From positions 151,670,352 through 151,734,351 of the forward strand of contig OZ038381.1 in the NCBI GenBank assembly GCA_964036045.1: a DNA stretch of 64,000 nucleotides, in the 5' to 3' direction. Every line of letters begins with the position of its first letter. Within the stretch, counting starts at the first letter, position 1. A program made the translations under genes and the position numbers. Of this stretch, positions 16,746 to 57,693 are shown piece by piece. Origin of the DNA: Eutreptiella sp. 'Long Island Sound 2002' (Eukaryota; Euglenozoa; Euglenophyceae; Eutreptiales; Eutreptiaceae). The notes under the pieces were generated by a model. That model did not search any database, had not been told where the DNA came from, and worked only from the letters and a program-made list of their open reading frames with translations.

Positions 16746-16796
16746 GCGTTAAAGCAACCAAATGGGGAATGGGGGCTTGATGAAAATGTTTGTAGT

Positions 16797-19440: not shown

Positions 19441-19462
19441 GAACAACAGGTCAGGGACCCCC

Positions 19463-20790: not shown

Positions 20791-20794
20791 CAAA

Positions 20795-20965
20795 GAACTA
20801 CATAAAATATGATAGTATGTGCATAAGAATGGGATGAGCGATGAACATTTGAGGTGTTTTTGGCCCTATTTTGCACCGTTTGTGGTCCGTTTCCATATGG
20901 TTCATAGGTAGGCTTTTGCGTGCCTATCACCGTACACACACATGTTTGGGGCTTAGGTCGTTATT
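20795..20965 (+). repeat. Detached unit of the 190-bp satellite
   Basis: Carries the GCGTGCC variant of the 12,164 satellite (CATATGGTTCATAGGTAGGC then TTTTGCGTGCCTATCACCGT). It lies about 7 kb from the main array, so both belonged to one insertion. Confidence 0.9.
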
Positions 20966-21522: not shown

Positions 21523-22345
21523 ATACGTCCTTGCTTCAGTGACCATGAGCTGCGGGTAGGCTTAGCGTAGCATAGTTTTTTGGCCACCAAATTCCCCTTG
21601 GAGTCCACATACTCCCTTAGCCTGCATCGAGGGTCCAGCTCTTTGTCCACGGGGTCTTCCACCCTCATGGAGAGTAGGGGTTTCAGAGGGGCGACGTACT
21701 CGGCGTTTTCCACTTCCTCCACACAGGTCTGCACGAAGAAGGCGTTGTGCTCAGTTTCCTCATCTGAGTGGATAGAGCTAGGTAGCTCGGATAGTCCACA
21801 CTCAGAGACTCGATCAGCAACAGGTACATGGCAGGGAGAGCTGGGGGCGTTGGTGTTAGTCAGAACGTATTCATCTCCTCCGGGTGTAGTCTCAATAGTA
21901 TCTTGAGGTCGCAGTCTATCTTTCAAGTCACCCAAGGCGAGTCCATCGCTTTCTCGTTGTATAGCCTGGACCAGAGTCGGGTCCAGATCCTCCCAGGTGA
22001 TGGAGGTAAGACCTCCGTCCACCACGCTGAGCAGACTCCCCAATCCGGGGTTCCCAATAGGCGTCTTACGCCCCAGAGGCACGTAGATGGCCTCATCAGG
22101 TAAACGAACAGAGCTGATAGTCAGCCTGTCAAGGAGGTTTCGCCAGTACTCGTTGCCCCCATAGGCTCCCCAATCGGGGGAGCACAGGACCATACAGGAA
22201 CGTTCAAAGGCCACCTTGGTCAGGACCTTCCCCAGTTCACTGAACCTGGGGTTCCCTAGGCCATCCCGAAAGAGTGCCAGTGAAATTTGTAGCTGCAGTT
22301 CTTCTCCTTGCTGCAGTAAAGGTCGAGGACATGCTGCTAGTCGCT
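21523..22345 (-). pseudogene. Element C methyltransferase-like domain and linker
   Basis: Read with element D as guide, this piece has AELFASD, a TAG, QHVLDLYCSKEKN, a frameshifted stretch in which NPRFSEL corresponds to D's NPPFSQL, then VLTKVAFERSCMVLCSPDW and EYWRNLLDRL. The conserved pattern (LFAS ... YCS ... NPPF ... VxLCxPDW) is the one seen in the Dam-like domain of DIRS-type retroelements. It sits between protease and RT. The nonsense codon and frameshift make it non-functional. A long acidic linker follows, cut by the inverted-repeat insertion at 21,522. Confidence 0.6.
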
Positions 22346-22549
22346 GGCGAACAACTCGGCACTCAGGTCTTCTCTAGAGTAACCCAACCCCTCCAGACCT
22401 TGGTCTAGGACTTCCTCCACTAGTTGATAGTTCTCAGCTTTGGAGGCCGCCATCATGTTCGAGGGATCCTCTTTTGATATCCTCAGGTAGCTCGAGGTAT
22501 GTTCTGACTGCTCCAGTGGCAGAGACTCTCTGCCACTGCCGTGGTCCAC
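22346..22549 (-). pseudogene. Element C pre-methyltransferase linker
   Basis: Same frame as the protease after a stop near 22,580. Contains KAENYQLVEEVLDQGLEGLG, which corresponds to D's TENYQLVRPVLENGLAALQL, leading into LFAS. It connects protease and methyltransferase-like domain. Confidence 0.6.
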
Positions 22550-22582
22550 GTACAGGAGGTAGGGCGCTTGAAGCGTCAGGGA

Positions 22583-22876
22583 TTATATCTGGGAGTGCTG
22601 CACGAAGAAGTCAGTCCCCAATACAAAGTCGAAGGCCTCAGTGTCCATCACATACAACCGATGGGCGATAGTCCGGGAGCCCATAGGTACCTCTACTTCA
22701 CAGTCCCCGCAGCTGTGCACCACTTGTCCATCCCCCATTTGTATAGCCGTGGTGGTCATGGTGTTCTTCAGGCTCCCACAAGGTAACATTTTCTTGGCCA
22801 CTATAGATATGGTGGCGCCAGTATCCAATACCCCCAGGTATTCACGTCTCTCTAGTCGGATACGTACCCAAAACAC
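22583..22876 (-). pseudogene. Element C aspartic protease
   Basis: A retroviral-type protease of about 98 residues: FWVRIRLERREYLGVLDTGA with the catalytic DTGA, a flap-like MGDGQVVHSCGDCEVEV, and DFVLGTDFF (the usual ILG-type motif). It would act as a dimer to cut the polyprotein. It is closed by an in-frame stop just after SQI, and the region between it and gag contains further stops, so processing from this copy is unlikely. Confidence 0.8.
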
Positions 22877-23004
22877 CAGGTCCTGGGCGGCAGCGGAGCG
22901 TCCCCGTCAGAACTCCGCAAGACAGGTCACCTGGAACCCCTTGTTCCGCAGCTTGCAGGCAATCGTCATGAAACGGCTTCTCTTCTCAGCGTTGCCGTCA
23001 TCAC

Positions 23005-27898: not shown

Positions 27899-28150
27899 CT
27901 ATTCCCCGTCCTGTTTGTCCGGATATTTTAAGAAAGAGTTTCTGGTATCCCTTGCTTGTTGTTGATATTGAAAACCTTGATTGCTTTTCAAAAGATGTTT
28001 CCCGGGAACTGCAAAAAGGTAAAGTCCACGAGCAAGGAACACCACAAACAGGATCAAAGTCAGAATTGTGATAGTATTCTTCCAAATCAAAGCATTGTAA
28101 GCAAAGAGGGGCTGCATATAGACAAATGAGGAATCAAATGTGCAACTCAA
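27899..28150 (-). CDS. LTR-encoded small membrane peptide, D left-LTR copy
   Basis: Starts MSCTFDSSFVYMQPLFAYNA, with hydrophobic TLILFVVFLARGLYLFAV and a tail ending in QQQARDTRNS. It differs from the right-LTR copy at about eight residues but stays open; it runs past the LTR end into flanking DNA because the primer-site stop is absent at this side. Confidence 0.45.
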   Translation of the reverse strand: MSCTFDSSFVYMQPLFAYNALIWKNTITILTLILFVVFLARGLYLFAVPGKHLLKSNQGFQYQQQARDTRNSFLKYPDKQDGE

Positions 28151-28666
28151 ATGGTTTTATAAACAAAACAAATGATTTTATGTGAAAGCTGGCATGACTC
28201 AGGCCTCCATGATAGCACCAAGCACTTCATGTGCACTCTTTTGGATGACATGGAGTTGGTCAGGAATCTGGGGCATAGGAGTTAGGCCAGACACAGGAAA
28301 TGACTTGGCGAAGCAACTGAATTCAGAAACAGTTACAATCTGGAACCACAATAAGTAGTAGAAACTTTTGAGTATAGGGGTCCTGAGCTGGGAGACCACT
28401 AGGCTTAACCTACAAGGCCCAAGGCATGAAGTGCCTACTTTATTTCGGTATAACCTCCATGAGGGATGATACCTCCGCTCCCTTGAGTGGCAGGGGTGAA
28501 CTTCTTGGGGGTGCTAGGGTTATAACCGTAGTTGCTGAGAAAGTGTACTTAAAGCTTCATGAGGGAAACAAAAATGTGTTAGTCTCAGTACCTCCTTAGG
28601 CAAAAAAGGGGGCTGTAGCCTGGATCAAGTACCCCAAGAAAGACATGGTAGTGACTTTTTCTTACT
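27932..28666 (-). repeat. Element D left LTR (3' LTR)
   Basis: 735 bp, collinear end to end with 38,352-39,086 with roughly 5% differences by eye. Sense-strand ends are AGTAAGAAAAAG and CTCTTTC; they are not the usual TG...CA. Inner end abuts a purine tract. Contains AATAAA on the sense strand. Neighbouring left flank (ATTTTA) and right flank beyond 39,086 (TCTTTC) do not match, so no target-site duplication is seen. Confidence 0.9.
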
Positions 28667-31139: not shown

Positions 31140-31643
31140 TCAGGGCAGGTCCCATAGCACACATGGTCGACACTCGCTGGTTGGCTGCACACCAGATAAG
31201 CGGCCATCTGGCTCACGCTGGTAACCATAGGCATGGGACTGCAGGGCACAGCCACGGTTGGTGCAGTGCTCAGAGTGCTCACCGACCCTGGGAGGTTGGT
31301 TCCTCTTCTTACGCTGTGACAGGGTCTCAGCACGGGTTAGCAACTGCCCCTCGTTGTCCTCAAGGAGGTAGGAGCAAAAGATGGGGTTGATACTCCCATC
31401 CGGCTGTATGAAGGCTGACATAGGCTCCCAGGTAGCCTTCGATAGCCCATAGCCATCCCACAGGGTCAGGAATTTCCAGCCCTGTTTATACTCGTGGCCT
31501 GCAATACGTGCAACCACGTAGTAGCCATCGACTGCCATTTCCTCGGCAGTCATCTCCTCGAGTTCGTCTGCCTCCTCAGGGGTGGCAGCGTTCTCCAGGT
31601 CGATACGCTCGACTTCACAGTCAGGCAAGCGCCACTCATCCCA
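31140..31643 (-). pseudogene. Element D chromodomain and C-terminal tail
   Basis: In frame with the integrase after a TAG at 31,644-31,646 (element C has a sense codon at the aligned place). Acidic linker, then a chromodomain around residues 35-90: DGYYVVARIAGHEYKQGWKF, SKATWEPMSAFIQ. A Cys-containing tail follows (HCTNRGCALQSHAYGYQ), longer than in C. Confidence 0.8.
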
Positions 31644-33365
31644 CTATAGTTCATCAGGGGAGTGGTAGTGTCTGAGCTGCTTAGGAGCACACAGCAGCTC
31701 CCCACCTAGAAGAGGGCTGCACGTCACATGGATCCTGGATCCATCTATCCTGATAATACGATAGGGCCCAAAGTAGGGGTCCTGCAAACACTTGCGGGGC
31801 CATGTGGGCAATCGTGAGTGGTGTACAAGCACCAGGTCTCCTACCTTGAGACTGGCAGGACGTCTCGTGCGGTTACGCCGGGATAGTTCGCGTTCTTGAA
31901 CGCGTTTCAGGTTAGCTCTGGCCCTGTTAGCCAGGTCCTGCCGGTGCTCCAGCCAGTCCCCAACTGGGCTCTTATAGTCCCCGGGGAAAGGGGTTTCGAA
32001 AAACCACGGAGGACGCCCCCCATGGAACAGTTCGTGGGGGGTATAGCCGGTTGAAGAACTCTCTTGAGAGTTCATGGCCAGAACGGCCCAGGGCAACAGG
32101 CGTACCCAATCTTTGGTGCGCTCCTGATTCATCAGAATCCTCAGATTCTGCTCCACCACACGATTCTGTCTCTCACAAAGAGGGTTGGACGTGTGCGTGT
32201 AAGGTACACCTGTGGCTACCTGGACGTTCAGGGCGTCCAGCACTCGCTTGTACCAACCGGTATAACTCCGGATGCGTACATCTTCATCGGAGTGGATCTC
32301 CTTAGGCGCCCCATAGGGCTCAAACCACTCCTCCACCAGAATCTTCACAGTCTGCTCTCCTGTGATCTTCTTGTTGAAGGGGATAGCAACCGTGAAGCGG
32401 GTTAGAACAAAGGTGACCACCAAACAACTACCGTAGCCACCAAACTTAGGCAGAATGTGGATGAAATCTGCGTACAACAGGGAGTTAGCACAGTAGGGTA
32501 TGGGGAGACTGGAGACCAGTCCTCTGTCACGTGAGTCGCTCTGTTTGCTGGCGTGACAGTCACAGGAGTCCACTATGGACTGCATACAGGCACGTAGTTC
32601 AGACTGGGTTAGTCGGCAGTGGAAACGCTCACTGAAGAAAGCAGCAGACCGGTTGCACCCTGTGTGCCCGGAGCTGTGGTGTGCCAACTGCAGACAGCCG
32701 TCCAGTCGTGCCTCAGGCGGATCTATGCGGTCCTCATAGTATAGGTACTGGTTATCTTTATACCAGCGGTCGCCATCTATTAGGCGTGCCTCTAGGCCAT
32801 CACTGAGGGTACTGAGTACACATTGGTACTCAGCCTGGTAGTCTCCCAGGCTCCAGCCCTCCAGTACACCTGCTGTACGCATGGATAGGTCCAGCTGGAC
32901 ATCCATACGTTGGAACGCCTCTTTGGCCAACGATTCAGAGCTCTCGCCTAGGAGGGTGTCGAAGTTATTACGCGAGATGTAGTCAGCCATCTCGTTCTTT
33001 ATACCTGGTATATGATGGACAGTCAACCTGAACTGACTCAGGTATGTCCACCATCGTTTTAGTTTCGCTTTTTCAGGAGGCGAGCGCTTCTGAAATGTCT
33101 TCACGGGCTCTTGGTCACAGAGCCATACAACAGGGTTAGTACCTAGAAGACGGGATTCGGAAGAGAGCGCGAGCATCCCAGCCAGGAGTTCCTGGTCGTA
33201 GGTACTGTAGTTGGATTGTGCTTGATTCCACTTCCAGTTCCAGTGCCCCAGAGGCACCAGACGCCATTCATTGGCGGAATCGTCATGCTTCAGGGTTTCA
33301 TCGCGGTTCAGACCTGAAGTGTGAAGCTGGCAGTGCGACAACTCATTGGGGTAAGCTCCTGCCAC
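31644..33365 (-). pseudogene. Element D RNase H C-part and integrase
   Basis: 573 open codons. RNase H end: NYSTYDQELLAGMLAL (catalytic Glu region), VVWLCDQEP, HHIPGIKNEMADYISR. Integrase: HHCC domain HHSSGHTGCNRSAAFF ... CDCHASK; catalytic Asp in LLYADFIHIL, Asp in IHSDEDVRIRS, Glu in NPLCERQNRVVEQN; then TGYTPHELFHGGRPPW and a basic C-terminal domain with DPYFGPYRIIRIDG. All three catalytic residues are visible and the frame is unbroken, so the integrase itself could be active, but its chromodomain is cut off by a TAG. The upstream join to RNase H is frameshifted. Confidence 0.85.
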
Positions 33366-33581
33366 TGGTATAGGGTACCACCCCTCCCTACGTCACACGC
33401 ATCCGTGACGAGTATTATCTCGCCCTTAGGGCGGGGCACCCCCAGGGCAGTTGGTGGAAGATATTTTCCTCTTCAACTCTTGGAAACAGGCCTCCTCCTT
33501 GTCGGTCCACCGCCAAGGGTTGGTCTTCTTTATAAGGTCAGTAAGGGGGGCTGATGAATACGTAAAATTGTGGATATGGCG
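33366..33581 (-). pseudogene. Element D RT-RNase H junction, broken
   Basis: After the TGA that closes the RT frame at 33,582 the sequence still codes for NFTYSSAPLTDLIKK, the connection WRWTDKEEACFQELK, and an RNase H start with LVTDACDVGRGG, but in shifted frames. The lesion separates RT from RNase H in this copy. Confidence 0.65.
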
Positions 33582-35972
33582 TCAGTAAAAATTGCAGCCG
33601 CCAATAAAGCTCCGCACATCGTGTAGACCCTTCTTAGGGCCGTCACATATCTGCATGTCCTGTAGGGGCTGCATCTTAGACGCGGCTGGTTTCCACCAGC
33701 CAAACCCCACGTCAAACCCTAGGTACTCCATCTCCTCTCGCATAAACTCACACTTCTCGAGTTTGATGCGGAGATGGTTTTCCTGACAGACGGTGAAAAA
33801 CTCTTGCAGGAGGAGGATATGATCCTCTTGGGTATTAGTACCCAGGCTCACATCGTCGATGTGGGCCTCCATCTCAGCCCCGCGGGAAAACAGTTCCTGC
33901 ACAAGGGGTCTGCGTCTCAGGATATATGAGTTTTTGTTCATCAGCTCCGGAAAGAGAGCAGGGGCATTCGCGACACCAAAGGGCAGGACCTTCCAGCGGA
34001 AGACACGGCTCTTAGGGGTTACAAAGGCGAGCAGTTCCTGAGCTGCTCGGGTTAGGTCTACTTGCCAGAAGCCACTGCGCTTATCCATCTTGGTCTTGAA
34101 TCGACACTTAGCAATTCTTCCCAGGGTGTTCTCCATGTTGGGGATACTCCCTGAGTGGTTCTGGGTCTTTTTATTGACCTCCCCATAGTCAACGACCAAG
34201 CGCATAGCAGTGGACCCAGGTTTAGCAACCAGATAACAAGGGCTACAATGGCGGGGGTAGTCCCCGTGCTTATACTCCTGGAGGATGCCAGCACCTATAC
34301 ACTCTTGGATCTGGCGTTCGATCTCGTCGATTTGGTCTTGTAGGGCGGCGTATGGACGCCGCCTCACTACCGACCCTTCAAACTCTGGTTCGAGTTTGAG
34401 GTCCATGTGGACCAGTTTCTTACAAGACAGGGGTGGGGGCAACGCTCCAAAAACCTCCTGATACTTGTGGATGAGCTTAGTGAGACGGGGGTCGAGTTTC
34501 ATGCTCTCCACTTTCTCGGAAAAATCGTCCTCAGCGCGGAGGTTACTCTTCCCTTTATCCTGCTTTTTTCTACGCCCCACTGTTTCGGGGGGCAACTCAT
34601 CCTCCCAGTCCTGGCGTTCCTGGGCATAGTGGAGGGAGTATACTAGAGGGGTCTCAGGATCGGGGAGAGTGGTCTCTTCATCATCCTCCTCGGACCAAAG
34701 AGAGGTTTTCCAGGTCTCCTTGAGGAGGTCCTGGCGGGTCCGTCGCTCGATACCCTCAGCCTTAGCCCACAGGACCTGCTGTAGTTCCTGCACGTCATAC
34801 CAAGAGACGGGCATGTTATTGGGTGAGGGTTTAGCGCCAGGTACCTGACCTGAGGGGCCATCAGTGGCTCTCAAAGAGAAAACGGCGTGATCATTAGACC
34901 CAGCAGGGGCGAACTCGCCGAGATCCACCTCTTCCATAAGCAACTGCGCTAGGAAAGCGCTATGCTTCAGTGTCACAACCTCCGGGTCGCCTGGGGGTAT
35001 TACACTGGTGATATCGCTCAGGCGGTCGTCAGCATCAGCCAGCGGAGTAGAGACTGCTGGTGTCTCCTGCTCATCGGGGCACTCACCACTCGTAGTGGTA
35101 ACCGAGGAGTACTCCAATCTCTTCTTGAGATCATGGATGGTAAGGCCCTTGTTTTTGGCCATCAACTCCTTGAGTACAACCTGATCAAGGTCACTCACAG
35201 GCACGGGGTTTAGAGCACCATCTACGATGGATAGGAAACTGCCCCATTCAGGGGCGGTCATGGTCTCCTGAGAGTCCTCAGGGACGTAGATGGGACCGTT
35301 GGGCAGTTCAGTCCTTCCCACGGTCATACAGTCCAAGAGGCGCCTCCAATAGGCGTGTTCACCTGTGGTACCCCAGTCGGGGGTGCACAGGACCACTCTC
35401 GCTCCTTCGAGGGCGATTTTGGTAATCACCTTGGCGAGCTGGGAGAAAGGGGGGTTTGCGTACCACAACCCCATTGATTTGCAGTAAAAGCGGTACTCAT
35501 TGTTTAGGTTCCGCGAGCAGTAGAGCTGCATCAGATGCTGCTCTTTACTCGCGAACAGTTCTACCTGAATTTCATTCAGGTCCAGCTGCAGGGCGGCCAG
35601 TCCATTTTCCAACACTGGCCGCACCAACTGATAGTTCTCAGTTCTGTAAGACCGGTTCACGTAACGTAGACCGGATTCTTTCAGGGCTGACAGCTCCAGA
35701 GGGACAGAGTATAGACCCCTGCTAAAATCGCAGTGAAGCAACTTGAAGCGCAGAAAGTCAGTGCCAATGACAATGTCAAAGGCGTCCGTGTCAAGCACTT
35801 TGCAGTGCTGCGTCACCTCCACATCGCCTACACATACAGTCACATCAACCCCCCCCAGAGAATGGATGGTCCGACCATCCCCTACCCTTATGGCCACTGT
35901 TTTGGTTTCCCGGATCTTGGCTTGTTTTAGCAATCTGCGGGCCACGATTGAGAGCGAGGTGCCCGTGTCCAA
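33582..35972 (-). CDS. Element D protease, methyltransferase-like domain and reverse transcriptase
   Basis: 796 codons without a stop, the longest frame of the C/D family. Residues 1-75 are the protease from its catalytic DTGTSLSIV to IVIGTDFL; a few residues upstream lie in another frame across an A6 run. Residues 115-235 form a Dam-like methyltransferase-type domain: VELFASKEQHLMQLYCS (137-152), YANPPFSQLAKVI (171-183) and ARVVLCTPDW (191-200). After a 300-residue acidic linker comes RT: LVVDYG (592), MDKRSGF (630), FGVANAP (about 665), and the active-site HIDD at 704-707, followed by YLGFDVGFGWW. RT motifs are complete. The methyltransferase assignment is inference from motif pattern; NPPF is the catalytic-type motif of adenine-N6 enzymes. 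Confidence 0.85.
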   Translation of the reverse strand: MDTGTSLSIVARRLLKQAKIRETKTVAIRVGDGRTIHSLGGVDVTVCVGDVEVTQHCKVLDTDAFDIVIGTDFLRFKLLHCDFSRGLYSVPLELSALKESGLRYVNRSYRTENYQLVRPVLENGLAALQLDLNEIQVELFASKEQHLMQLYCSRNLNNEYRFYCKSMGLWYANPPFSQLAKVITKIALEGARVVLCTPDWGTTGEHAYWRRLLDCMTVGRTELPNGPIYVPEDSQETMTAPEWGSFLSIVDGALNPVPVSDLDQVVLKELMAKNKGLTIHDLKKRLEYSSVTTTSGECPDEQETPAVSTPLADADDRLSDITSVIPPGDPEVVTLKHSAFLAQLLMEEVDLGEFAPAGSNDHAVFSLRATDGPSGQVPGAKPSPNNMPVSWYDVQELQQVLWAKAEGIERRTRQDLLKETWKTSLWSEEDDEETTLPDPETPLVYSLHYAQERQDWEDELPPETVGRRKKQDKGKSNLRAEDDFSEKVESMKLDPRLTKLIHKYQEVFGALPPPLSCKKLVHMDLKLEPEFEGSVVRRRPYAALQDQIDEIERQIQECIGAGILQEYKHGDYPRHCSPCYLVAKPGSTAMRLVVDYGEVNKKTQNHSGSIPNMENTLGRIAKCRFKTKMDKRSGFWQVDLTRAAQELLAFVTPKSRVFRWKVLPFGVANAPALFPELMNKNSYILRRRPLVQELFSRGAEMEAHIDDVSLGTNTQEDHILLLQEFFTVCQENHLRIKLEKCEFMREEMEYLGFDVGFGWWKPAASKMQPLQDMQICDGPKKGLHDVRSFIGGCNFY

Positions 35973-36095
35973 GACCGCTTTGTAAACCTGATCACCTTTT
36001 TTGACGTGACCCGGAAAATGAAATCTTCCTCCTCGGAGCCGCGCCCCTATTCCCCCTCAGGGAAATTCACTTCAGAGCCCGCCGCCTGCAGGCAC

Positions 36096-36689
36096 TTAGA
36101 CTGCCAGTTGAGGCGGCGCTTCTTGGCGTTCTCGTTTCCCTTGTACGGTTCGCTTCTCCCCAGGCTGCTCACCCTTGGGGGTGGGGCCTGGTATTCCACC
36201 TGTGGGGGGTGCGGAGTTTCCTTGCCCCCCTCCAGGGTTACCTCCACCGGGAGTTCCCCCAGGGGTACTGCTTCCCCCCCCCTTACCGGCGTACTTACGC
36301 CGTTCTTCCTCGGCCTTCTTTAGCTTCTCGGACTCGAGGCGTTTTATGTGGCACTCATCCTCGTAGTGCCTCCTCTTGCCGCAGTAGCCACACGTGATAG
36401 TGCAGCGGAAGTGGTCCTGGTGTTTGACCTCCTGACCATCCTTGGTCTTCTGCGTCCGCCGCAACTGGAGCATACAAGAGCTGCGTCCATCGCAGTCAGG
36501 GGCGTGACATGGTCCCCCTTCGTCGTGCGTAGGCTGGCAATAAAAAAGATATGGGGCTCCCTTGCCTTTAGCGGGGGGGGTCTTCTTCATATGCTTCAGT
36601 TGCCCTCCCTTACCCTTCCCAGGGTTAGAGTGGGGTTTTGGGGACCTCCCTCCCTGAGGTTCGTCAGCAAGGGCCTCCCTCCGCAGATG
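36096..36689 (-). pseudogene. Element D gag, nucleocapsid part
   Basis: In frame with capsid after a TAA near 36,690. Two zinc-binding clusters as in C: FYCQPTHDEGG..HAPDCDGRSSC and CGYCGKRRHYEDEC (C-x2-C-x4-H-x4-C). Then a basic helix and a Gly/Pro-rich tail. The protease frame starts about 120 nt downstream. Confidence 0.85.
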
Positions 36690-38289: not shown

Positions 38290-38339
38290 TGCTCAATACG
38301 CTGTGGATTTCTTGTGCTTTAGCTTGGCGAGTGTGTAAG

Positions 38340-38351
38340 CCTCTGCTACCA
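38340..38351 (-). promoter_or_regulatory. Element D primer-binding site
   Basis: Minus strand TGGTAGCAGAGG, adjacent to the LTR end (CTCTTTC). Complementary to the 3' end of initiator tRNA-Met. The TAG inside it is the stop codon of the LTR-encoded peptide. Confidence 0.9.
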
Positions 38352-38570
38352 GAAAGAGTTTCTGGTATCCCTGGCTTGTTGTTTATATTGAAAACCTTGA
38401 ATGCTTTTCAAAAGATGTTCCCCCAAAACAGCAAAAAGGTAAAGTCCACGGACAAGGAACACCACAAACAGGATCAAAGTCAGATTTGTGATGGTATTCT
38501 TCCAAATCAAAGCATTGTAAGCAAAAAGGGGCTGCATATAGACAAATGAGGAATCAAATACGCAACTCAA
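38346..38570 (-). CDS. LTR-encoded small membrane peptide, D right-LTR copy
   Basis: 74 codons: MSCVFDSSFVYMQPLFAYNA, a 20-residue hydrophobic stretch (LTLILFVVFLVRGLYLFAVL), and a polar tail ending ARDTRNSFW. The stop codon is the TAG within the primer site. One membrane segment is predicted by eye. Transcribed only if the start lies in the 5' LTR upstream of it. Confidence 0.5.
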   Translation of the reverse strand: MSCVFDSSFVYMQPLFAYNALIWKNTITNLTLILFVVFLVRGLYLFAVLGEHLLKSIQGFQYKQQARDTRNSFW

Positions 38571-39086
38571 ATGGTTTTATAAACAAAACAAATGATTTTA
38601 TGTGAAAACTGGCATGACTCAGGCCTCGAAGATAGCACCAAGCACTTCATGTGCACTCTTTTGGATGAAATGGAGTTGGTTAGGAATCTGGGGCATAGGA
38701 GTTTGGCCAGACACAGGAAATGACTTGGCCAAGCAACTGACTTCAGAAACAGTTACAATCTGCAACCACAATAGGTAGTAAAAACTTTCAAGTATAGGGG
38801 TCCTGAGGTGGGAGACCACTAGGGTTAACCTACAAGGCCCAAGGCATGAAATGCCTACTTTATTTTGGTATAACCTCCATGAGGGATGATACCTCCGCTC
38901 CCTTGAGTGGTAGGGGTGAACTTCATTGGGGTGCTAGGTTTATAACCCTAGTTGCTGAGAAAGTGTAGTTAAAGCTTCATGAGAGAAACAAAAATGTGTT
39001 AGTCTCAGTACCTCCTTAGGCAAAAAAAGGGGCTGTAGCCTGGATCAAGTACCCAAAGAAGGACATGGTAGTGACTTTTTCCTACT
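38352..39086 (-). repeat. Element D right LTR (5' LTR)
   Basis: 735 bp, partner of 27,932-28,666. Promoter activity is expected here on the minus strand. The outer end abuts element B's LTR at 39,087. Confidence 0.9.
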
Positions 39087-41810: not shown

Positions 41811-44800
41811 AAAAGCGTTCCACCGCCGCTGAGGTACCCAATCCCAGCGTGTTACTCGGGGCCGTCGCGGAGACCAACGAGTACCCCGACCCCGGGGACC
41901 TCAAGTTCATTGCAGATTGCCGAAGAGGACTCTCACATCAACGAGCCCTTGCAGCATCCGCATCAACAGTAGGAGGATTCCGACATCAACGAGTCCTTGC
42001 AGCTTCCGCAGCTACAACCACACCCACAGCCACAGCAAAGCCCCATGGCCAGCCCCAAGAACTTGCGTCGGCAGCCCAGCTAGGCCATCATCCGCAGCCT
42101 CGTGCGGGGGCTGGAGTGCGACCAGGAGTACAGCCACTCTCGGGCCCAGGGGGAAACTGCCCCCCAGTACGTGGAGATCCGCGACAGTGTGAACCATCAT
42201 CGCGCGATGGAAATGGAGCTCCAAGCCCTGGGCTACGAGTACCCTTGGCAGCGGCAGTGGTGGCGCATCTGGCGTGACAGCCATTACATCGCCAACTTTA
42301 GCCCCGACCTCCACCAAGAGGACCGGCCGGCTGAAGAGCCAAGCGCGCCCACCCCGGGCAAGGGCAGCGCCAAAGCGAGAGCCGCCACCCTGGGCGACTT
42401 TATGGAGGTCGCTCGAAGGTCCAAGGCCGATCCTGCCCTTCCGTTGCACCTGAAGCGCTTAGGCCCAAGCAGCGACGTGGAGTAGACCCATCGGGGAGCG
42501 CAACCCCGCCCAGCACCGTCCGCCAGCAGCAGCAGTAGTGTGGCTCAAACCTTAGCTGCCCCTCAGCGAGGCGAAGTTGCCCGCGCGTGCGAGCGCGCCT
42601 GCGGGGTGCCCTGCAATCTTTGCGTTACCCGAGACCAGGCCACGCAGCAGAACGCTGCGGTGGACGGAGCCGTTGTGATCGCCCAGAAGGAGGCTGCCCA
42701 CTGGTACCACGGCATGGCAATCCACTCCTCGGCAGTTGCGGCCATCTGGGACGCACTTACAGCCGCAGCCGCGGGGAAAGCGGCGGTTGCCCCTGAAAGG
42801 CGTGAGGCGGAGGCAGCTGCGCAGGAAGCGGCGGCTGGTCACGAATCCTGCCCCGCCAAGGAGGCCATGGCCAAGAAGGAGGCGGAGGTGAAGGCCTTGT
42901 AGCAGGCCCTAGCCCGAGAGAGGGCACGGATGGAGGCGGAGATGAAGGCCCAAGCAGACGCGGCGATGCGGGAGGCCATGGAGACTGCGGGATGGAAGGT
43001 CGCCGAGGAGAAGGCCAAGACAAAGGCAGAGCTCAGGACCCTGGAGGCGGACAAGGCTCGGCGGCAGCAGCAGCGGGAACGGGAGGACGTGCCTGCCCAG
43101 GAAGAGGCCGAGAAGCGTGCAGCAGAGGCAACTGCCGCGGCTACGGAGAACGCCGAGAGGAAGATCCGCCGCGAGACGCCCCCGGGAGGGTCCCGGGTGG
43201 ACACCCTAAGGAGGTTCTTCGACAAGGACCCTGTCTCCAGGATGAAAATGGACCTGGAGGCGGGGGACTCTCTGAACAGCGAGCGCAGCGGACCCGCTGC
43301 CTGTCCCCGCCGCAACGGCAGGGGGAAGACCCCAGAAAGACCACGGTAGCCTGCCGAGCCGCATCCCCACGACTCCAACCCCTTCGTCACCTGCAGCGAG
43401 CCAACGGGCTGCAAGTTAGGAGTGCCCGGAGCCGGCGGCGGAAGAGGCGGTGATAAACCGCCGAGCTCAGGTGGAGAGGTTCCCCCACCTCCCTACCGCA
43501 GCAGGAAAAGCACCCCCGGGCGACCCCTGCCGAGATCTGGACACCGATGGGGAGACATGAACACTGATGATGACATGGCATTCGGCCCAGATGCGGACCC
43601 ATCTGGCGGCGGAGGATCCCCGGATGGCAGTCTGCCTGGACCTCCAAACCTCGAGGATTGCTGGGAGGAGGCCCACCTGGTGGACCACCAAACAGAGCCC
43701 CCCCTGACAGTGGATCCCCTGGAGGGCCACCAGGCGAAGACCCTCCCGACGAACCGCCGGGAGTGTACATCCCCGAGAATATCTAGGGATGGATCGTGTA
43801 CCTCAAGAGGAAGATCTGGAAATGGGAGCGCGAGGCGCAGGTCAACAAGATGGAGATCGGCAAGAGCGTCAACGTCGCTGCCAAGGCGTAGAAGGAGCTG
43901 GACATCGCCAAGTTCGAGGCCGGGAACCTGAGCGGCGTGGTCACCAAGCTGCAGAGGAGGCTGGACAGGCTGGACGACCTGAGGAGCGACAAAGCGACCA
44001 GCCGCCCCCTCTGGAGTTGGGCTCCAACCACAGCTTGAAACCTGGACCAGATCCAGGCAGGCCCCTCGGAGTGACCACGCGCTCCCCACCCGTGGAAGCG
44101 CCCGACGGCGCAACCTCATGCCCCAGCGGCGCAGCAGAGAAGAGGAGCGGGATGAATGGCTGAGTGCGGACTACTGCCGACGCCGTGACCCCCTCCGCGA
44201 CCTTGCTCAGCCCAAGCCGCCGAAGCACGCCCCGGAGCCAGCCCCACCGGCGTATGCCGAATACGCAGCGCTGCGGGACGAGGTCCCCAAAGAGGACATG
44301 GAGTGGGACATCGAGGGTCCCGATGGACACCGCATGGAGGACCTCGGGATTAGCCCACCCGTGGGATCAGCCAGCCGGAGCCAACGGTAATGCGAAGGGG
44401 AAGAGTACATGGAAGGCGTACACCGAGGAGTCCTCAGAGGAGCGTATGTGGAGGAACCGCAGCGCAGCTGCTTGGACTTCAAGGAGGAGATGGACGTGGC
44501 AGTCATGCGAAAGCACGGGGGACGCCAGTTGGAACCTCGGTCGACCTCGCGACCATCGTTTATGGTCTCCAAGGCGGTGGACGCCGCTGTTTGGGGAAGC
44601 CTGAAGGACATCAGGCCCCCCATGCACCATGGGAACCCCCTCAGCCTCGGCCGCTTCTTTGAGTAGCTGCACGATAGGGGGATGATCGTCTCTGAAGACA
44701 TGGACCCTGTCGCGGCGGAGTAATATGTCTTCAAACGGTTCACGTTGGCACCTACCGGAGGTGCTCCAGAAATCTGTACTTCGTGGCGGCCAGGGAGGAG

Positions 44801-46049
44801 AAGCTCACGACCCACAAGGAGGCCAAGAAGTGGCTCAACGAGCAGCAGCGGGTGGGCGCCCCGCAGGTCGCCGCCAAGAGGTGGAGAGCTATCAAGCTTC
44901 AGCATGATGGCCCGGAGATCCGCCTGCGGGATTGGCGGGGCTTCCGAGGACAATACGTCCTGTTCCGCCGGAACGTGGAGGACTGGAACGAAGGTGATGA
45001 GCAGTCACGCCTGCTCAATCTCCTCCCGGACGCCTGGGTGAAGCGGGTCACGGAGGAGGAAGCGAAGAGGGCCAAGAGCAACCACATAGTCAAGATGATA
45101 TTCAACAAGGAGCACCGCAAGAAGGTGGTGAACCGGACAAGAGCCAAAGTTGCCCGGGAGTTCAAGAAGCAATCCCTGCGGAACGCCCCCCTCATCAGCG
45201 TTTCAGGGGATCGCAAGAAGGCAGCAATGTGGCGCCTGGACGAGTATCAGGTGGGCGGCCAGACAATCTGTTCGCAGGCCGTGCCTGCGCTGATGAGCTG
45301 CAATGACGTGCTGGAGTGGGTCAAAGAGGACGTACTCAAGGAGTACAAGAACCTCGCCCACAACCGCGGATTTTAGGGAGCCAACTGCAGCGTCCACCAG
45401 GTGGGCGCAGGGTGTGACGGGGAAGCCGTCATGGACCCAGCGGGGGCCGGAGGCGGCGGAGGTCTCGACGATGATGACGACGCGGAGAACCAGCTGAGAA
45501 CGCCCTCGGCGCCTTTGTTGCCAACAACCTGCACAAGGGAAGCACTCCAGGAAGCTGGAAGCCCCTTCAGCAGGGTTGGAAGAAGAGGGAGAAGAAGCAG
45601 CCCCGCCGAGTCGGCCACCCGCGACTGTCCTTTAGGGAGTTCATTCGAACGCCTCTTCAGGGCTGCTTCGTCTGGTACGGGCGGTACTCCCCCTTCCAAC
45701 ATGATCACCGGACGTGCCCCATCCACAAGGCCTACACGGAGGCGTACAGGAAGGCGCACGGGACCAAGAAGCGTACGTCAGCCAACATCCGGGAAGCCAA
45801 AGTGGAGCTGTCCAAGGAAGACCTCTCCAAGCTGATGATGGTTGGGACGGAACTGGCGAAGGAGATTCAGGAGATCATGAGAGCTTAGGGATCTACGCCG
45901 GACAAGGACAAGGACAAGGACAAAGACAAGAAGGGCAAGAGCCGGTGGAGGAAGAAAGGAGACATGGTGAGCGAGGTTTCTGCGGAGGAGGACATCCCAA
46001 CCACCGACGCCCCTTAGCGGAGCCCCAGCAGCCAAGGGCCCCAGCTAGG
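41811..46049 (+). pseudogene. Element B gag-like polyprotein, decayed
   Basis: Collinear with A's polyprotein from the leader to its end. Recognisable pieces: 42,102-42,485 (GDFMEVARRSKADPALPLHL), 42,540-42,902 (ACERACGVPCNLCVTRDQAT), 42,930-43,349 (Ala/Glu/Lys coiled coil), 43,480 (VPPPPYRS), 44,118-44,390, 44,783-45,376 (WLNEQQRVGAPQVAAKRWRA, FRRNVEDWNEGDEQSRLL) and 45,650-46,020 (YGRYSPFQHDHRTCP, REAKVELSKEDLSKLM). Stops at 42,483 (TAG), 42,900 (TAG) and 45,374 (TAG), plus several frameshifts, are absent at the aligned A positions. The copy ends at CCCAGCTAGGGCGGT, where A continues into pol. Confidence 0.8.
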
Positions 46050-46210
46050 GCGGTTGGAGGCAGAGGGGTGGTCTACAGAGTCTACAGTGGCACCATGATA
46101 GTAACCGTATACCTGTATACAGGTTTACAGGTATACAGTGTCTACAGAGAGTCTACAGGGTCTACAGTGTGGTTTACACGTCTACAGGTATATAAGGAGT
46201 CTACAGACAG
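46050..46210 (+). repeat. TCTACAG-type short repeats
   Basis: Irregular direct repeats of GTCTACAG with GTATAC palindromes (GTATACCTGTATACAGG). They sit exactly at the 3' break of element B. Confidence 0.75.
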
Positions 46211-49031: not shown

Positions 49032-51989
49032 TGACGCGTTCCCGTGGGGGGCCCGGCCACGGGACGCTGCGGTGACACGCACAAGCAAGCAGGCAGGCAA
49101 AGCACTGCGCTCACTGGGGCATCAATACGCTCGTGTCATGTGACAAAGCGTTTCAGGATCCTTGCCACTCTGAAACAAGGTAACAAAAGTATGTACAGCA
49201 ACACATCAGGATATGTACACATGGGGTTAAGACTGGACTGGGATAAGGGCATCACAGGACAATAGACACTCAGTCCCAACTTGTATCCCAATCCCAGGTC
49301 CGACCCTCTCAGTGGCTGGTCGGGGCGGGGGCTCAAACACAACCCATGCCCTGCTCAGTCCGGACCCTGAAACCCTGCCATCAGGAGGGGTGTCCCGCCC
49401 AGCCAGAGGCGAGTCTCTGGGAACCAAGATGCTGCAAGGCCAACCAACAGTAGCTCCCCATGCTCCCTTAACAGCGGGTCCCAACTTTTCTTCTGAGTGA
49501 GAGGAATGGCCCCGCCATTATCCCCTAGGAGTTGGTAGCTGAAAATGGGCTGTTTCAGCCCAAACTGACATTAGCTCAAAAATCTCCAAAACCGGCCCCT
49601 GGTCCGGACGTGCCAGAGGTAGGGACGAGGCAATTGACCCTATGCCCTTTGAGTGTGAACTTACTGGGGCCCTCACCCAACCTGGTTCCCTCTGAGGTCC
49701 CCGCATCAGGGCACCACGGGTTCGGCAAGTGGGGTCATGATGCCAAAATCACCAAATTTGGCGTCATTCCCACGCGTGGCTCGCCCGGCCAGGGCAAGGT
49801 CAATGGCTCACAGGACAGGAGGGGGGACCTAGGACCTTATACTGAGTGTACAACGTGGAATTAGGTCCGGGCTCCCTGTGGGCAAAAAGATATGGGGCCG
49901 CCAGTTGACCACACGGGGGGGGTGAAATTGGGGTCCAAAAAGGGGGTCATTTTGGCCAGTCAAAATGAGCCAAAATTTGGGGGTGCTCCCAATAGTATAT
50001 CTCCACGCCGGCTTGGAGATCGGATCCGCCATGTCATACGCGATTCCACCAGGAGTCCAATCCAGACTCCCATGCCCTTGGCTCTCACAGATCTCCACGC
50101 CACTCGGCGTGGTGACAATCCCAATTGGGTCCACAAATGCCAAAATGGCAAAATTGTCCACACTCACTTTGGGCTAGCACCCTAACGAAGGTTGCTCCGC
50201 TTCGCCCACGTGGTGTGTGAACCATGCTGACCAATGTCCATAATACCCATGTCATATATGGTCTATTGGTCCATGAGTCTGGCGTGCACGAGGGTGCTGA
50301 ACATGGTGCACGGCGGGCAGAAAATGTGGAAAATTGCCCAAAATGGCCGAAAATGCGCACACTCATGCTTGGGGCAAATGAGGCACATGCCCGACTTGGA
50401 GTGGAGTGTGCCATAGAATTGGTATCAAGTCATATGTGTCCAACATATCTTTTGGGCGTCGCCCAACTCCTCCGGTTTTCAGAATGGCAGGGTCGCCAAG
50501 TGAGCCCATGATTTGGGAGGGTCCCAAATCGCCAACATGGCGGCCTTGGTACGCCAGGTCCAAGAGGAGTTATTCGCCGGGTCCAACATATGTTGGGCAG
50601 CCAAGTATGTACCCACATGATATACTTGGGTCATGATGTCAATTGGGCGCAACGTTGAGATACACCGTCGCCACTTGACATCATGACGGGCAAAAAACAG
50701 CAAGATTGGCGAAAAAACACCCAAAAGTGCCTTGAAAGGCGCACAAATATATTATAATACCTTCGGCTTGGATTGAGTAATTGACCAATTCTTCTAAACA
50801 CAATGACTTGACACCAATGACCTCCGACTCCACATATGTGCCCCACTTGGGGCGCTTTGGAAGGTCGCGCGCGCTGCCTCCCAAGTGGGCACATGCAAAA
50901 ATGAAATTTTGCAAAAAACACACCTTGCTCGCAACGCATCGCTTCGGGAACGCTCCACAAGCGTCCCGTCACGAAGGTTAGTCTCGCGAGTGTTGGTTGG
51001 GAGTACAATGAAGGGCCTCGTGCGATATGAGGTCCATTGTCGGCTTAGTCTTGGAATGGTGCACCCGCCCAATGGGCACGCGATATGACACCAAATATGG
51101 CATATAACCCTACCCAATCCTTCTACACCCAACCTAGTGGCCTAGAACCAAAGTATGCCTATATTCTAATGTAACTTTGGTCCCTTAACACGCGTACAAG
51201 TGTTTTGGTCGAAAATGGACCTCCTTTCGGAAAGCAGAATTTTAGCATGCACGCAAAATATATTGCCAATATGTATATGGCGATCATATATGCACTATCC
51301 GGGGAAGACAAGTGACATGCCCCAGATGTAGAGGCAAGCAAGGGTGGGACAAACGCGAACTCAACATACTTCTACACGTGCTTGGACGCCAAGTACGTGA
51401 AAAAGTGCACTTCTTGGAGAACACTCAAAATGAATAACCCTTTGGGCCTATTGAGTTGGGATCCTTTGGCCTCGTCCTATGCCTATGGGGGGTAAAACCT
51501 CATACACAGTGCCTATGAGGCACGTTAGTTCGCCCTTGGGCGCTTGAACGCTCGTAACCCTTGTTATACCCCTTGGGGGTTCAAAGCGCCTTCGGCTGCC
51601 CAGATTTTCTGGGAAAAATCTGGGACGTGATCCGTTATATCAAGGAAAAAATTACGGATCACTCGAAGACTGTTTCAGTCTTAACTTCAAGAGAAATCGT
51701 ATTATGGATTTATCTAATGCAGTCCACGGAACAGGCGACGACAGGCGGCGCGACTGCGGCGATTTCACGACAATTGGAAATCGCGGTAGAAATCGGGTAT
51801 TTCACCGATTTCCGACTGAGAGTCGCCTAAGACAATAAAGTTATGGTAATTCTACATTGATTTAATGGTTAGAAATCGGGTTCCAGATCTCGCGGGTTAG
51901 AGAACAGGGATATCCCGCTGACAGCCGGTGTCAACGGCTTTCGCACGGGTGTGACGGCTCATGGGCCATAGGTTCTGGGTACCGCTTCA
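49032..51989 (-). repeat. Element A left LTR (3' LTR), 2,958 bp
   Basis: The right edge is fixed by the polypurine tract: sense strand TGAAGCGGTACCC begins the LTR. The left edge is where similarity with the right LTR and with B stops (sense ...GGGAACGCGTCA). Ends are TG...CA with near-inverted TGAAGCG/CGCGTCA. 49,032-50,145 aligns with 62,891-64,000 with about 4% differences in the part I compared. It interrupts the LINE-like frame to its left. Confidence 0.8.
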
Positions 51990-52000
51990 CCCCCCTCCTT
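51990..52000 (-). promoter_or_regulatory. Element A polypurine tract
   Basis: Sense strand AAGGAGGGGGG directly before the LTR's TGAAGCGG. Confidence 0.75.
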
Positions 52001-53453: not shown

Positions 53454-54740
53454 TCAGGCACCCCTGGCTGCAATCGCCCGGGTGAGTGCTGCCAAGTTCG
53501 AGACGTGGATCTTGGTCTTGTGCCTGCGGATGTACTCTATGGAGGGAGTGTTAACCCGCGGCACGAACGGGGAGACGGGTTCCCAGGTGTCCTGGGACGA
53601 TCCATAGCCTCGCCAACGAACCTTGAACTCCAGGCCCCCGGATGCTGAGGCGTTCGGACGCTGAGCCAGGATCATCTCGACAGTATAGTCGTCCTGCTCA
53701 GCATAGTCGTCGTCCGAGTCAGCCTCGGGTTCCCGCACACGGAGCTGACTCTCGTGTCGCTCCCGGAACTGACCGTGACCCACCTTGATGCGATAGGTGT
53801 CCTCACCAATCCTGCGGACCACCTCTCCGGGTGTGAACCAGGTTTTGGTGCGGTGGGTGCCCATAGGGCGGGGTCTGAACACCCACACCGGGTCTCCCAC
53901 CATAAACCTTTGCGCTGTCGAGCTCAGGGCGGACTTCTGACGCTCAGCATGCTCCTTCTCGAGCTGCTGGCTGATGTCCCGCGCCGTTTGCTCTTGCCGC
54001 GCAAAGAATTCCTTGGCGTCCATAGCCATGCCATCACTAGACAAGGGAAGTCCCCGACCCAGGGGGTCCCTGCCGAACAGAATCTGGTGAGGGGACAAAC
54101 CACCCGGAGTGGGGGTGTCATGATGGGCCTTCAGAGCGGGCCACATCTCCTCAAACCAGTTCCGACGTGGATTGGTGATGTGAATCTTGCGCAGCTTCTC
54201 GAACAGCTGCCGTCCAGCCACTTCAGCCCGGCCGTTAGACCGGCTGAGATAGGCGACGCTCTTGGCATGACGTATTCCCATAAGGGAACACATAGCCTTG
54301 AACCAGCCTCCAGTAAACTTGGGCCCTCGGTCACTGCAAATGGTGCGGGGGATGTCAAAGACGGTCAGCCAATGACGAATCATCACGACTGCCACTTCCT
54401 TGGCAAGCAACCCCTTTTTGCGTGCCGGAACAGCTACTAAGTAGCCACTGTGGCGATACACACAAAGAACCACACAGTCAAAGGTCTCCTTGCCAATGTG
54501 CACTTCGGGCATGGAGAAGACGTCCATGGCCACGCTCTCCATGGACTGGTCAGGAACCGGGCTCCATTGGGCTTCCCCCTTGACGTTCCTGTTATCGCGA
54601 TTGCAGGCCTGACAGACCGAGCAACCCTTCCTGACCTTCTTGATGGCGGTGTAGAGACCGATATGGTCGATCTCGAACCGGCGTTGCATGTCCAGGGCTT
54701 GCTTCTTGACCCCTGGGTGCAGCATGGGGTAGCTCGAGCA
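53454..54740 (-). pseudogene. Element A integrase with chromodomain
   Basis: Integrase: zinc domain HPGVKKQALDMQRRFEIDHI ... CSVCQAC, catalytic Asp in ESVAMDVFSM, Asp in ICSDRGPKFTGG, Glu in SRSNGRAEVAGRQL. Then LSPHQILFGRDPL, a GDPVWVFRPRP-type C-terminal domain, and a chromodomain at the end (VEMILAQRPNASASGGLEFK, SSQDTWEPVSPFV). All catalytic residues are present. A frameshift near 54,740 separates it from the upstream pol frame. Confidence 0.9.
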
Positions 54741-55179
54741 CTCGGGACTCTGGTATTGGCAGCTTACCGTTCCGGTAAAGCTTGCCATCTTCCTCAGTCA
54801 GCCCCTTTGGCCACTTCTGCCCGTCATCAGGGTCGGTCACAGCCCTATACTCGGCCGCAAAGGCCTCAGACTTGGCGTAGTCGTCGGTCCAGTCGTCCTG
54901 GAGGCAACATTCCGGGAAGAGGTGCTTGTCGGACTCAGCTCCATCAGGGGCGAGTACTCTGACCGCTCTGCCCATCCTCATTCCGAGGGGGGCATCCGCA
55001 GCCATAACGACGAAGCATTTAACACCCTCCTCCTCCATCAGGCGCTCCATTTCAATGATCCTCTTGGCTTCAGCAGTCTCAGTTTCATCGCCATGGGCAG
55101 AGATATCCGTCATGCCCTTGCTGGCGGGATAGGCCCACCTGCTGAGACAGTCCGCCACGGTGTTATCCTTCCCAGGAAT
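54741..55179 (-). pseudogene. Element A RNase H end and pre-integrase linker
   Basis: After a TAA at about 55,180 the pol frame goes on with IPGKDNTVADCLSRWAYPAS, the last RNase H motif, and a linker to TEEDGKLYRNGKLPIPESR, which precedes the integrase zinc domain. It then leaves frame. Confidence 0.75.
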
Positions 55180-55518: not shown

Positions 55519-57693
55519 TCAGTCGGGATCCACGAGGTGCAGACCCACTGCGGATAGCAGCGCCTGCTTCATCCCCTCAAAGGCACGGTCGGAATCAGCA
55601 ACCCAGACCAGAGCCTTCTTGGACCCCTTCTCTCGGTTGTCCTTGAGCATGGCGGTCATGGGGGCTGCATACTCGGCATACATTTTGACATACCCCGAGT
55701 AGTAGTTGCAGAACCCCAGATACACCCGTAGCTCAGAGACCGTCTTGGGCTTTTCCCAGTGCTCAATGGCAGCCACCTTGCCAGGTATGGGCTTTCGCTG
55801 CCCGTTCCCAACTACGTGGCCAGCGAAGACCACCTCGCTTACCGCAATGGTGGCCTTGTCACTGCTGCCCGTGAGTCTGTGCCGAACCAGAAGGTCCAGC
55901 ACTCGAGTGACGTCCCTCTCATGTGCCTCCAGGAGCTCCTCGTAGCTCATAGTGGGGTCCCCGGACGCGATGATCACGTCGTCCACGAAGGGGTCCGCAC
56001 AGTCACGCACCGGTTCAAGCAGGTTTTGCAGCATCCGCTGAACAGCCGCATTGCCGTTGGTGACGCCCATGGGCATCACCTTCCACTGGAGAGGTCCAAG
56101 TGGAGTGCTCATGGCTGTGCAGGCACGGGACTCCTCGGCGAGAGGCATCTGATGATAACCTTGGTTCAGGTCAATCACCGTGAAGATCCTCCGCCGGTGT
56201 TGTTTTTGCAGCATGTCCTCAATGAGGGGCAGCGTATAGCTGTCGTGCTGCGTTTGGGCGTTTAGGCCGCGGTAGTCGACCACGAGCCGCCACTCACCGG
56301 CCACCTTCTTGGAGACGACGAAGCACGGAGAGGCCCACCCGGAGTGGCACGGCTCAAGCCAGCCTCTCTCGATGAAGTCACGGAGGATCTTCTCCATGGC
56401 CTCCTTCCTCTCGCCCCTCAGGGCAAACTCCCGGTGCCGATAAACACGGGGGTCCTGCTTCAGTCGTATCTTGGCCTCGCCATACGGTCCACGAACTGGT
56501 GGGGGAAACACAGGCTTTCCGCTGAAGAAGGTATCACCATACTTCTGCTTCAGTCTGGCCCTCAATGCCTGGATCTTGGGGCAATCATCGGACTCCGCCT
56601 TTGCTTTTCCGGGCACCTGGACCACTGAGCTTACTTGTGGGGTAGCGACCCCGCTCGGTTTTGGCTCAGGCGGTCTTCCCAGGTGGCCCAAAGGGCCATC
56701 TCTGGTCTTGCCTCGGAATAGATCGCCGTAGGTGGGTGGGTTACCGCCAGGCGGCTCGTCCTGGCTGGACATGTGATCCAGCACCCTCTGTACCAAGGTA
56801 TTCCCATCATAGGAACCGGAGACGATGGAGTCCACTTCCCACCGGGCTTTGTCCTGGCCTTTGTCCTCACGCTGGCTTCCCCGGTCGTGAAAGGGCTGAT
56901 CCATAAACCCCTGAATCAGATCCAACTCCTCTTCCGTGAGGGGGTCTTTCGATTCTCCGATGTCAAGAGGGGGAACCGCAAAGCATTGCCGCCAGGGCTC
57001 CGCTATGATGCGGTTGACCCACACGAGATCCGTGGCGTCGGCCTGATCAAGGCCCCCATCCACATAGTGGAATTCCGTTGGCCATCTCTGGGGTGGCATG
57101 GGCTGTCCCTTAGCGTCCTGATAGACACTCTCTCCAGCCGGTAGGACGACCTTGTTTAAGGTCATGTTGGTCAACGAGACCACCCAATGTCGGGTACTTT
57201 CCTCCTCGGTGCATCCCATAGGAACGACCAGCACTGCCTTGGAGCGGTCCTTGCGGATCTTCGCTACCGCTCTTGGAATGTCCCAACGGGGGCAATGGAT
57301 CCACATCAATCCCTGATGCGGACCCCAGTGCTTCTTCCACGCGGAGTCCTGTGCGCTCCAGTACTTCTCACAAACCCACAGATGGGCGGAGGTTCCTGAA
57401 GAGAACGCATCCAGGGCCAGATCCGAAGCTCCCAGGTCCGCAACAACTCGGCTCGCCACTTCCGGTATTACGCCGTACTCCTGGTTTGCTGGCCCAGTTG
57501 GCTCAGTGTCCAGCGCGGCCACTTCGAGCTGATTGCGTTCCGGCTGGATCCATTGGCATTCCACATGTTGCTCAGGTGACGATAGCCACGAGAGCTGGTC
57601 GTCCTGGTACAGGGTCATCGAGGCCTGGGCCGGGAGAACACCGGAGTCCTTCTCCATCATGAAGTCGTACCCAACGATCATGTCCCAGTCCAT
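55519..57693 (-). pseudogene. Element A protease end, methyltransferase-like domain and RT
   Basis: 724 open codons beginning MDWDMIVGYDFM, the last motif of the protease. Residues 85-185 match the D methyltransferase-like domain: LALDAFSSG (92-100), WIHCPRWDI (131-139, where D has YANPPFSQL), VLVVPMG (154-160), RHWVVSLTNM. The catalytic-type NPPF is lost. RT follows: KQDPRVYRHREFALRGERKE, WRLVVDYRGLNAQT, FTVIDLNQGYHQMPL, MPMGVTNGNAAVQRML, FVDD (569-572), AGHVV, YLGFCNYYSGYV. Motifs are intact. The protease active-site Asp is upstream in another frame and not clearly recognisable. Confidence 0.9.

Follow-up and report, generated by a model that had tools for sequence, protein, structure and literature searches.

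Dam-like methyltransferase domains have been described in retroelements of the DIRS type, whose Pol has the order reverse transcriptase (RT), RNase H, methyltransferase and which carry a tyrosine recombinase, without a protease or a DDE integrase (PMC3783388, PMC3266345). The function of the DIRS domain is stated as unknown (PMC3266345). In this study, we analyzed a stretch of 64,000 nucleotides, hereafter the window, from the euglenozoan Eutreptiella sp. 'Long Island Sound 2002' (GenBank assembly GCA_964036045.1, contig OZ038381.1, positions 151,670,352 to 151,734,351), in which the long terminal repeat (LTR) retrotransposon that we call element D lies on the reverse strand. As in DIRS elements, its Pol contains a domain related to the Dam family of Pfam, but the domain stands before RT rather than after RNase H, and it does so in LTR elements with a protease, an integrase and a chromodomain, the last a weak match in element D.

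Several other mobile elements offer partial parallels. KnitGypsy-Dnmt3, an LTR Gypsy element, and SymbioDIRS-Dnmt3 carry nucleic-acid methyltransferases in their Pol, but these are cytosine methyltransferases, structurally unrelated to the Dam-like type (PMC5890265). Orchid Ty3/gypsy elements with an ALKBH5-like N6-methyladenosine (m6A) demethylase share accessory adenine-N6 chemistry with the elements described here, but the enzyme is a demethylase and lies in an additional open reading frame (PMC9289625). Sola1-type transposons of Ectocarpus carry a ParB-DNA methyltransferase gene with predicted N4-cytosine or N6-adenine specificity, although they are DNA transposons in which the methyltransferase, rather than forming part of a Pol, is encoded by its own gene on the other strand (PMC12477816). 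One published account places DAM in DIRS and assigns DCM to both Ty3/Gypsy and DIRS, and PMC6681497 treats tyrosine-recombinase elements. Our literature search, which took in few subscription journals and neither bioRxiv nor Repbase Reports, turned up no account of the order protease, Dam-like domain, RT in Ty3/gypsy elements. What appears to be new here is the Dam-like domain in Ty3/gypsy elements before RT, whereas Dam-like domains in DIRS and cytosine methyltransferases in Gypsy and DIRS Pol were already known.

The pol frame of element D (33585-36056, reverse strand) is open over 824 codons and encodes a protease, the Dam-like block, a linker and RT, in that order (Table 1). An initial annotation, made from the sequence alone, had reported the motifs LFAS, YCS, NPPF and VxLCxPDW between protease and RT and had assigned them to 33900-35972; all four are present in one open frame, but the range was too wide, the methyltransferase-like block being confined to 35127-35744. 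Element D is a Ty3/gypsy LTR retrotransposon because it has LTRs, the order protease, RT, RNase H, integrase, and an RT whose best matches among solved sequences are to Ty3; it is probably chromovirus-like. In this copy, the open frame is broken between RT and RNase H. The gag frames had no Pfam match, and inspection by eye revealed no clear target-site duplication. We also considered and rejected a DIRS-type identity: a protease and a DDE integrase are present, and a Pfam scan of seven frames of element D gave no tyrosine recombinase (Phage_integrase) match. A DIRS-type domain order was rejected as well, with the Dam-like domain upstream of RT and not downstream of RNase H.

Pfam and profile-profile comparison show the block to be homologous to the Dam family of phage N6-adenine methyltransferases, which supports the identity that had been proposed from motifs. 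What links the block to the DIRS methyltransferase is a common Pfam family, Dam (PF05869), to which fungal DIRS elements give matches as well (PMC3783388). Dam was the sole Pfam family matched by the D block, over residues 155-215, at E 0.25 in the whole frame and 0.033 with the block alone, both below the curated cut-off. The evidence for homology is strong because relatives match well, though D alone matches weakly. In a set of 56 sequences, consisting of 55 of 98 homologues and the window's own sequence, 34 gave matches to the Dam model with E ≤ 0.1, the best of them at 8.5e-5. The only PHROGs model matched at this threshold was a phage DNA methyltransferase (2/56 sequences, best 0.0086), and of the five NCBIfam models matched, one was again a phage DNA methyltransferase (4/56, best 0.0093). 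Across the 2.28-Gb genome, the Dam model scored 150 of 3,814 candidates (best 8.2e-9); by our own count of the table, 103 of the 150 lie above the curated cut-off, or 109 including those that pass with frame neighbours, and related families exceed it at 37.8, 29.9 and 40.2 bits.

Comparison of nine retroelement sequences with nine phage sequences in hhalign gave 98.5% and an E of 1.5e-15 (for a single comparison), with 133 columns aligned in order; the score was 97.4, against a maximum of 22.7 over 150 column shuffles. The retroelement set held eight sequences from seven families, by our own grouping, plus the sequence P0222; with the threshold at E ≤ 1, the Dam model recognizes eight of these nine, the best at 5.7e-12. 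Of the nine proteins in the phage set, one is annotated as hypothetical, and the other eight bear annotations as methyltransferases or methylases of DNA or adenine. The motifs follow the same order as in phage Dams such as that of T1, but the phage enzymes are free-standing genes, only 17% identical in the 133-column comparison, and around the position of their WxTP motif the elements carry TENYQ or KTEAY instead. In an initial shuffle control, run on 63 sequences with gappy columns kept, 3 of 192 shuffles equalled or exceeded the observed score of 25.5 (largest 128), which we ascribed, without proof, to gapped columns or to stale output. When the control was repeated with gappy columns removed, observed scores of 39.7 and 35.8 compared with largest values of 25.1 and 20.6, respectively, in 150 shuffles.

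The Dam-like domain is spread over several diverged Ty3/gypsy families of this genome. The order protease, Dam-like domain, RT, which the initial annotation had singled out as non-standard, is real in many copies, and further families show the domain followed by RT. Chance does not account for the block: among 739 candidates, 98 proteins (E ≤ 0.01) carry the block or part of it at 65-91% identity, one 90% cluster among the homologues representing 5,370 sequences; 76 domain crops read ANPPF in 46 cases and otherwise in 14, the motif not being found by pattern in the other 16. D's own family was scored at 55 places of 55,814 candidates, on many contigs and 88-93% identical apart from D itself. 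Nearly all of these matches cover protease through RT, and 19 have no stop, four of which belong to frames open over 1,595 codons. Of the 30 genomic copies of this family, D included, 29 retain NPPF and one has NSPF; in D, glutamate replaces aspartate before LFAS. The window itself contains three elements with the domain: D (NPPF), C (NPRF) and E (HCPRW, 55.5-57.7 kb).

Other families differ in the catalytic motif, and the caution on catalysis voiced in the initial annotation was well placed, since D keeps NPPF and other families in the window and the genome do not. The second family, that of element C, reads NPRF in 44 of 62 crops, with other readings in 7 and no motif found by pattern in 11. 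The third, found among the top Dam matches, has NAPF in all 15 frames, from 30 loci, in which the pattern was found; one copy (L070) encodes Dam, RT, RNase H and integrase in order in a single 1,774-codon frame, and a protease-like stretch before the domain was recognized by eye only, with no Pfam match. Both families are numerous in the genome. Three short stretches yielded three further lineages, with one to two members read in each. Two have NPPF: one has a relative, P0220, in which Dam is followed by RT, and the other (L074) has the motif after a protease-like frame unrecognised by Pfam. The last (L075) has NPPW and a Dam score of 27.2 bits, just below the cut-off. In the 1.6 kb examined of each, L074 and L075 showed no RT.

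The families fall into two deep groups: D and P0014 stand with the second family in one, and the NAPF family, P0221 and element E make up the other. Because these groups share only 23-33% identity in RT and 17-26% in the Dam-like domain, the domain may either be old in these Ty3/gypsy elements or have been acquired more than once; these identities fit an old shared domain.

Three further observations concern individual homologues. P0222, on a contig of 1,172 bases, has NPPF and is 37% identical to L073; it may come from another organism and hints at a wider range of the Dam-like domain. The frame of P0026 contains NLTLTLTLTLT, the peptide expected from a telomere-like repeat of six bases, and continues into the element, which may reflect insertion near telomere-like repeats. 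Five copies share two identical stops at frame positions 585 and 670 (L022, L024 and L031 on C13, L026 on C226 and L027 on C1388), and duplicated segments therefore seem to carry the element.

Patterns of substitution suggest that purifying selection on the domain in D's family is about as strong as on RT and that the domain was kept as protein while the family spread. Over the 30 copies, the ratio of summed nonsynonymous (dN) to summed synonymous divergence (dS), taken over non-independent pairs with dS > 0.02, was 0.30 for the domain, 0.35 for the protease, 0.37 for the linker and 0.39 for RT. For analysis of shared variants, four copies were dropped because they share two stops with a fifth, leaving 26 non-duplicate copies, 16 of them stop-free. 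Among variants present in at least two of these 16, the domain had a per-site ratio of nonsynonymous (N) to synonymous (S) variants of 0.09 (6 N, 23 S), compared with 0.14 in the protease (4, 10), 0.17 in the linker (18, 32) and 0.16 in RT (13, 23). Singletons in the same copies, which are mostly post-insertion, gave 0.50, 0.54, 0.57 and 0.47, respectively. With all 26 copies, the shared-variant ratios were 0.21 for the domain, 0.16 for the protease, 0.28 for the linker and 0.27 for RT.

Structure prediction, a check named in the initial annotation, also indicated a methyltransferase fold and no other, with the reservation that the alignment behind the model included phage Dams. An AlphaFold model of the domain, built with 14 phage Dams in the alignment, reached a mean predicted local distance difference test score (pLDDT) of 74.5 and a predicted template-modelling score of 0.75. 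Compared with the PDB, this model had six matches at E ≤ 0.001, all to entries for cap-specific adenosine methyltransferase. The comparison figures were 9.3 for the cap enzyme, 8.7 for KsgA-type rRNA enzymes, 7.0 for TaqI and 6.9 for T4 Dam. PCIF1/CAPAM, the cap-specific adenosine-N6 methyltransferase, is thus the closest solved fold and shares the NPPF motif, but it is a cellular RNA enzyme with no sequence match to the element domain. A different fold for the D block was considered and rejected, as Pfam matched only Dam and the best structural matches of the model are methyltransferases.

Taken together, we consider it probable that these Ty3/gypsy elements encode, in Pol between protease and RT, an accessory Dam-family adenine-N6 methyltransferase that acts on the element's own nucleic acid. 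In families with NPPF or NPPW, the domain would use S-adenosylmethionine to methylate adenine N6 on that nucleic acid; methylation may take place inside the particle, beside RT, on complementary DNA (cDNA) or genomic RNA, and the methyl mark would label the copy or protect it, either ahead of integration or as it occurs. In a motif of the NPP(Y/F/W) type, the second proline contributes to holding the amino group of the target; the domains of the NPRF and HCPRW families are therefore probably no longer enzymes and may be retained for binding or structure. The NAPF domain may be an enzyme or not: that second proline is kept, and NIPY or NLPY is the motif of working KsgA/Erm-type enzymes (PMC8868631), so this family could be active. 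One could instead suppose that none of the elements encodes an active enzyme and that the domain is throughout a pseudoenzyme of Dam descent, its fold serving nucleic-acid binding, protease-RT spacing or particle assembly without any methylation. The changed motifs of the second and third families and of element E fit such a role, as do the abundance of those two families and the substitutions beside LFAS and NPPF in D; we nevertheless find it unlikely, given the near-uniform NPPF of D's family, the NPPF or NPPW of three further lineages, the shared variants that point to purifying selection, and the KsgA/Erm precedent, by which NAPF is not necessarily dead.

The choice of substrate is less clear-cut, as the phage relatives argue for DNA, whereas the predicted likeness to the cap enzyme and, by analogy, the orchid demethylase element (PMC9289625) argue for RNA. 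An enzyme that modifies an adenosine of the element transcript, as m6A or as cap N6,2'-O-dimethyladenosine, for protection, packaging or translation timing and not for marking DNA, nonetheless appears improbable: the nearest sequence families are phage DNA methyltransferases, and in the model comparison the cap enzyme had only a small lead over the KsgA type, with the DNA enzymes TaqI and T4 Dam not far behind. Virtually no weight attaches to the idea that a DIRS element or a bacterial gene was inserted or misassembled into a gypsy element, and nothing in its favour came to light. The domain lies in frame with protease and RT in the 19 stop-free copies, on many contigs and in other families, so that the copies already refute an artefact; in addition, no tyrosine recombinase was matched when seven frames of D were scanned. 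A bolder proposal, which we hold to be rather doubtful, is that a Ty3/gypsy radiation with its own pre-RT adenine-N6 methyltransferase marks its cDNA or RNA, and that the families with changed motifs retain the fold because they act as inactive partners of the active families, or as decoys for them. METTL14, the inactive partner of METTL3, provides a comparison for such partners.

Several observations weigh against a methyltransferase role of this kind. On its own, D scores 14.3 bits with the Dam model, below the curated cut-off of 28.1 bits. Alignments restricted to D's family and the second family were weaker in hhalign: five sequences gave 82.7% against the nine phage Dams (81.4% without gappy columns), and 63 sequences gave 33.4% with gappy columns and 64.9% without. 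T1 Dam, used as a single target, was not set apart from other T1 proteins; tblastn of a family member against 50,697 phage records returned no match even at E 10, and no relative was found in viral contigs. A sequence profile matched no methyltransferase in the PDB, its best rows (eIF3L, 0.047) looking like chance, and a model built from 83 sequences without phage Dams reached a pLDDT of only 42, so that a usable model needed them. The selection counts are small and purely descriptive, and intact copies are favoured because the copies were picked as best matches to D. Finally, motif changes expected to stop catalysis occur in at least two families, and D itself has cysteine for the tryptophan of its family before NPPF (FYC for FYW); because of these changes, catalysis in any copy is only predicted.

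Table 1. Features of elements D, C and E in window coordinates. Numbers after Pfam family names are E values.
Feature	Position	Strand	Basis or remark
D, Dam-like methyltransferase domain (predicted)	35127..35744	-	residues 105-310 of the 824-codon frame; Pfam, profile comparison, model
D, motif TENYQ	35628-35642	-	within Dam-like domain
D, motif VELFAS	35547-35564	-	within Dam-like domain
D, motif LYCS	35514-35525	-	within Dam-like domain
D, motif NPPF	35445-35456	-	catalytic motif of Dam-like domain
D, motif VVLCTPDW	35373-35396	-	within Dam-like domain
D, aspartic protease	35745..36011	-	gag-asp_proteas 1.1e-7, residues 22-103; DTG at 35958-35975
D, linker from Dam-like domain to RT	34422..35129	-	present in homologues
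D, Ty3-type RT	33585..34421	-	RVT_1 7.2e-26, residues 611-782; RLVVDY at 34185-34202, HIDD at 33852-33863
D, RNase H and DDE integrase core	31647..33392	-	different frame; RT_RNaseH 3e-9; rve 3.8e-6, below its cut-off
D, chromodomain-like stretch	31416..31520	-	downstream of integrase; Chromo 9e-4, below its cut-off
D, gag zinc knuckle CX2CX4HX4C	36351..36392	-	pattern only; upstream of pol frame
D, 5' LTR, 736 bp	38351..39086	-	94.2% identical, ungapped, to 27931-28666
D, 3' LTR	27931..28666	-	direct repeat partner of 38351-39086
D, primer-binding-site-like stretch TGGTAGCAGAGGC	38339..38351	-	inner edge of 5' LTR; presumed likeness to a tRNA end
C, methyltransferase-like domain, broken	21924..22558	-	43% identical to D over best 111-residue stretch
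C, LFAS	within 22343-22360	-	
C, catalytic motif NPRF	22242-22253	-	shared with most second-family crops
C, aspartic protease	22586..22906	-	upstream of Dam-like domain; gag-asp_proteas 6.8e-6 (below cut-off), RVP 2.9e-5 (above)
E, diverged Dam-like domain	57166..57420	-	upstream of RT; Dam 0.017, below cut-off; RVT_1 4.5e-22
E, LDAFSS	57397-57414	-	
E, WIHCPRW	57283-57303	-	HCPRW replaces NPPF
E, protease tail	57661-57684	-	by eye only; no Pfam protease match
E, integrase core and chromodomain	53457..54797	-	rve 3.6e-4 (below cut-off); Chromo 1.6e-8 (above cut-off)
E, direct repeat, probable 3' LTR	49033..50136	-	90.7% identical to 62892-64000, which runs to window end

Element E spans 49033-64000 between direct repeats of about 1.1 kb. 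Opposite-strand copies of a gag-like region, 73% identical, lie at 44147-46060 and 58093-60035; they are regarded as gag by position and by a zinc-knuckle-like motif seen by eye, and had no Pfam match. A further gypsy remnant at 8084-11720 has an RT 74% identical to that of D, and tblastn with the protease and methyltransferase parts of D found no match in it. Elsewhere in the window, tandem arrays occupy 12145-13498, 16152-18617 and 19440-20781, with units of about 380, 820 and 180 bp, respectively, and a piece of the first is repeated at 20793-20965. The first 8,000 positions differ from most of the window in having 68-74% guanine plus cytosine, a strong AT skew and long open frames that overlap one another.

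In summary, the same domain is found in a second retrotransposon superfamily, at another position in Pol and apparently under selection, which makes the question of its function testable by comparison. A single genome holds natural families that look active alongside families that look inactive. Our findings are relevant to the route by which adenine methylation entered the mobile elements of eukaryotes, and to the question whether retrotransposons account for part of the N6-methyladenine in some of these organisms.

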